Part shown: in pieces, positions 13,227 to 13,309 of the stretch
How positions within the stretch are numbered: position 1 is the stretch's first letter
Layout: each line of letters begins with the position of its first letter
Assembly (NCBI GenBank): GCA_020073645.1
Contig: JAIQET010000018.1
Span: forward strand, 1-64,000
Direction: 5' to 3'
Source of the DNA: Terriglobia bacterium
GTDB lineage: Bacteria; Acidobacteriota; Terriglobia; Terriglobales; Acidobacteriaceae
Length of the DNA stretch: 64,000 nt
Notes under the pieces: generated by a model
Told to the model about the DNA's origin: nothing
The model's input: only the letters and a program-made list of their open reading frames with translations
Databases searched by the model: none
Program-made: the position numbers and the translations under genes

Positions 13227-13309
13227 AACCGCAAAGGACGCAAAGAGCTCGCAAAGTGCGCAAAGATTTTCTTCGCGACCTTCGCGCTGCCTTTGCGGAC
13301 TTTGCGGTT
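13227..13309. repeat. Mirror-symmetric intergenic palindrome of eight heptamers (4x CGCAAAG, then 2x CTTCGCG and 2x CTTTGCG)
   Basis: CGCAAAG starts at 13230/13239/13250/13259; complementary heptamers start at 13271/13280/13291/13300; 9-11-9 spacing in both arms. Confidence 0.9.

Follow-up and report, generated by a model that had tools for sequence, protein, structure and literature searches.

The window, a 64,000-nt stretch of a contig of a Terriglobia bacterium, contains a palindromic array of heptamers between icd (11773–13197, plus strand), an ORF of the isocitrate/isopropylmalate dehydrogenase family (Pfam PF00180, E = 7.7e-87), and mdh (13423–14349, plus strand), an ORF of the lactate/malate dehydrogenase family (Pfam PF00056/PF02866). 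The left arm (13227–13266, plus strand) begins with AACC and carries four CGCAAAG units at 13230, 13239, 13250, and 13259. A 3-nt centre (13267–13269) separates it from the inverted right arm (13270–13309, minus strand), which is composed of two CTTCGCG units (13271 and 13280) and two CTTTGCG units (13291 and 13300) and ends in GGTT. An earlier note on this DNA had described eight facing heptamers with a 9-11-9 spacing in both arms, and the units, coordinates, and spacing were reproduced exactly from the sequence and by the unit scan. In the repeat search, the arms were 40 nt each and complementary at 75%; they constitute terminal inverted repeats, and paired arms were also found at other sites of the genome. 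By chance, a four-unit arm with fixed spacing should arise about 1e-10 times per 64 kb, and 20 simulated windows contained no such arm. The unit scan and pattern search identified a second array in the window, which is a single arm (61174–61199, minus strand; ACCACAAAGGACACGGAGGTTCACGAAGG) with the units CACAAAG, CACGGAG, and CACGAAG.

The palindrome was predicted to fold strongly, with z-scores of -5.75 (plus strand) and -6.66 (minus strand) relative to shuffled sequences. The fold was better on the minus strand because CGCAAAG facing CTTCGCG gives G-U pairs there and A-C mismatches in the plus-strand transcript. The terminator scan called no canonical terminator at the palindrome, in agreement with the earlier note, which had held that this is not a standard terminator. 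The accompanying remark that a T tract is missing was not fully accurate, as a TTTTT run (13313–13317, plus strand) starts 4 nt past the right arm, where the family flanks carry AAAA/TTTT (flank profile of 59 arm starts). Rfam gave nothing above the gathering score at the palindrome, the sole match in the window being a tRNA at 40622–40693.

The palindrome was not a single occurrence. The repeat search of the source assembly (4.43 Mb, 123 contigs) with the two-heptamer pattern CRCRRAGNNCRCRRAG, an analysis that the earlier note had proposed, yielded 121 matches, compared with 6 for the reversed control. The copies examined were drawn from the first 100 of the 121 matches. Among the matches listed, 52 clusters were distinguished, comprising 35 single arms, 13 facing pairs (> <), and four back-to-back pairs (< >). 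Although coding sequence occupies approximately 90% of the window, 48 of the 52 clusters among the matches listed were intergenic and clear of predicted genes; 12 clusters lay in convergent gaps and five in divergent gaps. Back-to-back CGCAAAG arms were observed at L022, L027, L037, and L040, with outer flanks that were alike in some of them (CTGAGAATC..GACCACCTC), and arms in this arrangement with similar outer flanks are possibly a composite repeat. At L059 (1455–1564; G000:C96:42168-42223), CGCAAAGTGCGCAAAGGCTT is present three times in tandem, forming a 20-bp repeat made from the same heptamer units.

The copies read shared a common arm grammar, in which AAAA-nnn-TTAACC is followed by heptamers mostly 8–14 bp apart. 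The profile of the 59 arm starts gave the consensus flanks AAAA...TTAACC and GGTTAA...TTTT, with a conserved unit core and variable spacers, and the information in the outer flank ended about 11 nt outside the first CC. In the source genome, the outer edges of the full element read AAAAnnnTTAACC at one end and GGTTAAnnnTTTT at the opposite end. The spacing between units 2 and 3 was 11 in 18 arms, 12 in three, 13 in 17, and 14 in one; among the four-unit arms, 9-11-9 was found in 18 and 9-13-9 in 17.

These spacings bear on the proposal, also made in the earlier note, that the heptamers are phased binding sites for a protein, which may be a nucleoid or regulatory protein. In the copy between icd and mdh, units are 9 bp apart and pairs are 20 bp apart, or about two helical turns, and a conserved core with variable spacers is likewise what binding sites would give. 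However, the 20-bp distance is no rule of the family, as pair spacing switches between 20 and 22 bp from arm to arm, and helical phasing was ruled out by the equal frequency of 11- and 13-bp spacers. A unit spacing of 8 bp is used in other copies, each relative has a unit of its own, and the arrays avoid divergent gaps. We regard the phased-site array, an explanation weakened by this alternation of 11 and 13 between unit pairs, as very improbable.

Arrays anchored by ACC were found in most genomes of the family of the source organism and in G039, and none was found in the sister family f2. Among the rows listed, the preferred unit was specific to the genome, being CGCAAAG in the source, CACAGAG in G012, CGCAGAG in G019, and CACGAAG in G002. 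In the icd–mdh gap of the same-genus genome G001, the left arm of an orthologous palindrome is shorter by one 9-bp unit, a loss that has no counterpart in the right arm; elsewhere, the gap holds arrays of other units in several genera and no array in others. Several palindromes are orthologous between G000 and G001, and these copies are therefore old, while one site lacks the array in G001. No compensatory change was seen by eye in the few G000/G001 pairs of orthologous palindromes that were compared, and a unit was lost on one side. Presence and absence of arrays thus vary at orthologous junctions, some of which are empty or carry an alternative; none of these junctions was similar enough to reveal a target-site duplication. 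At L108 (1843–1939, 11089–11135, and 15504–15534), further short repeats of the dispersed kind were observed that match many times in G001, G007, and G010, and these were not heptamer arrays as far as was looked.

Comparison of G000 with G001 showed that the inner units and right arm of the icd–mdh array are better preserved than the DNA to the right of the array, which could reflect a host function. For example, a hairpin behind icd may be under selection as a bidirectional transcription terminator or an mRNA stabiliser. This explanation is consistent with the strong fold, the T5 run past the arm together with the AAAA/TTTT family flanks, the excess of convergent over divergent gaps (12 vs 5), and the good preservation of the inner units and right arm in G001. 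It is weakened by the terminator scan, by the A-C mismatches on the sense strand, by the uncompensated disappearance of a 9-bp unit from one arm, and by the many relatives in which the icd–mdh gap has no array or has arrays of other units; we consider it quite unlikely. As the unit loss in the left arm is unmatched on the right and the mismatches fall on the sense strand, a conserved structured RNA, another option raised in the earlier note, was not supported.

The heptamer arrays were also found around genes encoding GxxExxY proteins (TIGR04256/PF13366). For 80 loci from named genomes of many phyla, including archaea (Methanothrix, Methanophagales, and Methanosarcinales), a ">" array was present within 200 bp upstream of the gene in 59 of 78 loci, and a "<" array lay at most 200 bp downstream of it in 53 of 76 loci; outside these flanks, the background was few or no arrays per 200-bp bin. 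Both arms were present in 43 of 74 loci, compared with 0 of 390 control placements (six offsets). The consensus unit was identical in the two arms in 33 of the 43 loci, where 9.9 were expected. When inverted repeats were scored without regard to the unit, 73% of the loci exceeded the 99th percentile of the controls. Flanks missed by the motif in several loci of genus g69 were read by eye and contained related units (e.g., GCGGAT, ACAGATAAA, and CACGAAA). The tight inverted framing of GxxExxY genes extends across many phyla.

At L325 (Acidobacteriota), the GxxExxY gene lies within four-unit CGCAAAG arms, and this locus is the closest gene-bearing counterpart of the icd–mdh palindrome, whose arms have the same units and the same four-unit layout. 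Between the icd–mdh arms, the gap is merely 3 nt and holds no GxxExxY gene, and the palindrome was thus classified as a gene-less copy. One of the three full-length GxxExxY genes in the source genome ends just before a complete CGCAAAG palindrome. At L099 (1876–2745), a minus-strand ORF next to a GxxExxY element runs into the array (C-terminus RQRQSSPRRHGDTEKK), and the element may therefore have supplied the stop codon of that ORF.

GxxExxY was present in 15 of 18 array-rich genomes and in three of 23 array-poor genomes (p = 7.5e-6), a comparison that, like the other array and gene statistics, is uncorrected for the relatedness of the genomes. The three array-rich genomes without the gene include G001. 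The nearest GxxExxY relatives in named genomes were from Acidobacteriales and Candidatus Sulfotelmatobacter. The protein family is widespread, sometimes with many copies per genome. An all-against-all comparison within genus g69 revealed no young GxxExxY copies with differing flanks, the pairs of high identity being orthologous with matching flanks. No match was obtained in phages, and eight distant matches were obtained in plasmids, which were of no help in finding empty sites.

The order of events may be reversed, with the array first and the gene second. In that case, the palindromes would have arisen and spread through activities of the host, for example replication slippage or gene conversion, and GxxExxY would be a homing-type gene that settled in their loops. 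This would explain why gene-less arrays far outnumber GxxExxY genes, why one GxxExxY gene of the source genome adjoins a complete palindrome rather than lying inside it, and why the unit preference is genome-specific, as expected from gene conversion. On the other hand, a unit common to both arms in 33 of 43 loci is expected if arms and gene travel together, and GxxExxY is rare in array-poor genomes. We therefore regard the array-first order as unlikely.

The GxxExxY gene has approximately 120 codons, and the catalytic residues of the protein (E23, D63, E73, and K75) show no variation across its alignment. The AlphaFold2 model was confident (pLDDT of 92.5), and the folds nearest to it were those of SSO0001 (which is Cas4-like), AdnAB, and lambda exonuclease; no relative was found by sequence among solved structures. 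The model supports a PD-(D/E)XK nuclease fold rather than any precise activity, as the E-values of the structural matches were weak (best 0.009). Where the gene occupies a fixed locus, purifying selection acts on it, with dN/dS values of 0.02–0.13 for the ten pairs with finite dS. To our knowledge, GxxExxY proteins have no assigned role, and we know of no PD-(D/E)XK nuclease that acts as a transposase. In one paper, GxxExxY appears as an incidental domain label next to a reverse transcriptase. Within the literature searched, which lay mostly outside subscription journals, no paper tied GxxExxY to such arrays or described the arrays.

The occupants of a junction were found to differ between species. 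The L308 junction was compared in nine species of one genus (G210, G186, G218, G178, G151, G076, G142, G226, and G194; L316 and L350–L363). GxxExxY within CGCAGAG arms was found in two species, and four-helix-bundle-like genes, identified by sequence reading and not by a family scan, were found within ATTCCAG-type arms in two and within ATTTGCGATC-type arms in one. Of the remaining four species, one had a gene-less array at the junction, and three had a short intergenic stretch free of arrays. At the C110 junction, the GxxExxY element of G000 corresponds to a gene-less palindromic array in G010, and elsewhere the junction holds different short repeats or no repeats. Occupants could also have been exchanged via ordinary recombination through the flanking genes.

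TIGR02436 genes encode four-helix-bundle proteins of the IVP/S23 type, and of 24 loci with such a gene, 79% showed framing by inverted arrays in the unit-blind test. The array units at these loci (L253–L281) were different, for example, GCACTTA, AGTTTCG, AGTTCTC, and TTAGGCA, and heptamers of the GxxExxY type were found around none of the TIGR02436 genes except at L260. The TIGR02436 gene at L260 lies amid long direct arrays of CACAAAG/CGCAGAG-type units, with 13–21 units on one strand, an arrangement unlike the inverted arms elsewhere. Intervening sequences of 23S rRNA have complementary ends around an optional small gene, which encodes the four-helix-bundle IVP/S23 protein. The heptamer elements resemble them in their complementary ends and optional small gene, and the TIGR02436 genes described above lie between inverted arrays built from other units. 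They differ in that the icd–mdh palindrome sits between protein genes rather than inside 23S rRNA, and in that the gene-bearing form carries GxxExxY.

Among known dispersed repeats, REP sequences and REPINs with their RAYT genes and TIRtrons with TIRYT (PMC3733652, PMC3116915, PMC8049555) are the closest parallels, being intergenic palindromes that occur singly or as inverted pairs and are linked to one small gene, which lies between the repeats in some loci. RAYT genes are sometimes flanked by their own repeats (PMC3733652) and are described as vertically inherited (PMC3733652, PMC3116915, PMC8049555), which is comparable with the purifying selection on GxxExxY at fixed loci. However, RAYT is a Y1 (HUH) transposase, whereas the partner of the heptamer arrays is the putative PD-(D/E)XK nuclease, and REPs are defined by a tetranucleotide tag, GTAG or CGTC, at one of their ends (PMC3733652), whereas the heptamer elements are tandem arrays, with neither tag in either arm of the window copy. 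The source genome encodes 13 Y1_Tnp genes (L370–L382), and none of the 13 loci, covering about 1.5 kb per side in most, contained heptamer arms. Most of the Y1_Tnp genes had strong inverted repeats within 500 bp that were unlike the heptamer arrays. These inverted repeats are reminiscent of the TIRtrons reported for Koribacter.

Membership of the icd–mdh palindrome in the REP/REPIN group was therefore rejected; it is a dispersed intergenic palindrome, but it lacks the tag, and no heptamer arms occur near the 13 Y1 genes. Mobilisation of such a repeat by a RAYT/TIRYT transposase would agree with the dispersed, intergenic palindrome, with the 13 Y1_Tnp genes of the genome, and with the ability of RAYT genes to have their own repeats as flanks (PMC3733652). 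We give this mechanism hardly any credence, as the arms carry no GTAG or CGTC tag, none of the 13 Y1_Tnp loci has heptamer arms, and where the flanks were long enough, the inverted repeats framing the Y1_Tnp genes were of quite another kind. In the broader sense of the earlier note, which had listed a mobile REP-like unit among its options, the REP-like part of the suggestion was supported, outside the known GTAG/CGTC REP superfamilies, as the family is dispersed, intergenic, and palindromic, has single and paired arms, and has a gene-bearing form; its mobility is putative.

The heptamer elements also resemble MITEs, as they are short and gene-less with inverted ends and many copies, and differ in presence or absence at orthologous sites; unlike MITEs, their arms are tandem arrays. 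The TAACTGA repeats of Beggiatoaceae (PMC4679880) are likewise abundant intergenic heptamers, but these are direct repeats, mostly located close 5' of start codons, among which just one inverted case is reported (PMC4679880).

Considering these results together, the icd–mdh palindrome is probably a gene-less, REPIN- or MITE-like copy of a dispersed intergenic GxxExxY inverted-array element. The full element would comprise two inverted arms, each with at least three heptamers that are rich in purines (C[GA]C[AG][AG]A[GT] or a related unit) and 8–14 bp apart, enclosing either nothing or one GxxExxY gene. We infer that the arms owe their spread to the nuclease, or to its lineage, acting at or near hairpins or cruciforms formed by the arrays. 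The element would thus be mobile, and the gene-less palindromes would be non-autonomous passengers moved in trans, comparable to REPINs in relation to RAYT. The icd–mdh copy would have no required host function and would provide at most a hairpin 3' of the icd stop codon.

A wider proposal, which we advance tentatively as a possibility somewhat short of even, is that the intergenic inverted heptamer arrays seen across bacteria and in some archaea form the cis half, and the GxxExxY nuclease the trans half, of an undescribed class of miniature elements. The TIGR02436 proteins with their own arrays would form a parallel class, and the two classes would occupy the same junctions and substitute for each other in sister species. 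The element between icd and mdh would be a kind of miniature inverted-repeat element with a cognate enzyme, and there is a substantial chance that the class is new, as its partner does not belong to the known transposases.

A repeat and a protein family that both lacked an explanation thus seem to belong together; taken alone, the arrays would pass for meaningless repeats between genes. The link between the array and the nuclease provides a testable substrate for GxxExxY, and the pairing suggests a class of small elements outside the transposase-based catalogue. If the arrays around four-helix-bundle genes reflect the same phenomenon with a different partner, a large part of the short intergenic repeats of Acidobacteriota could be explained by elements that have small cognate proteins and take each other's place at favoured junctions.
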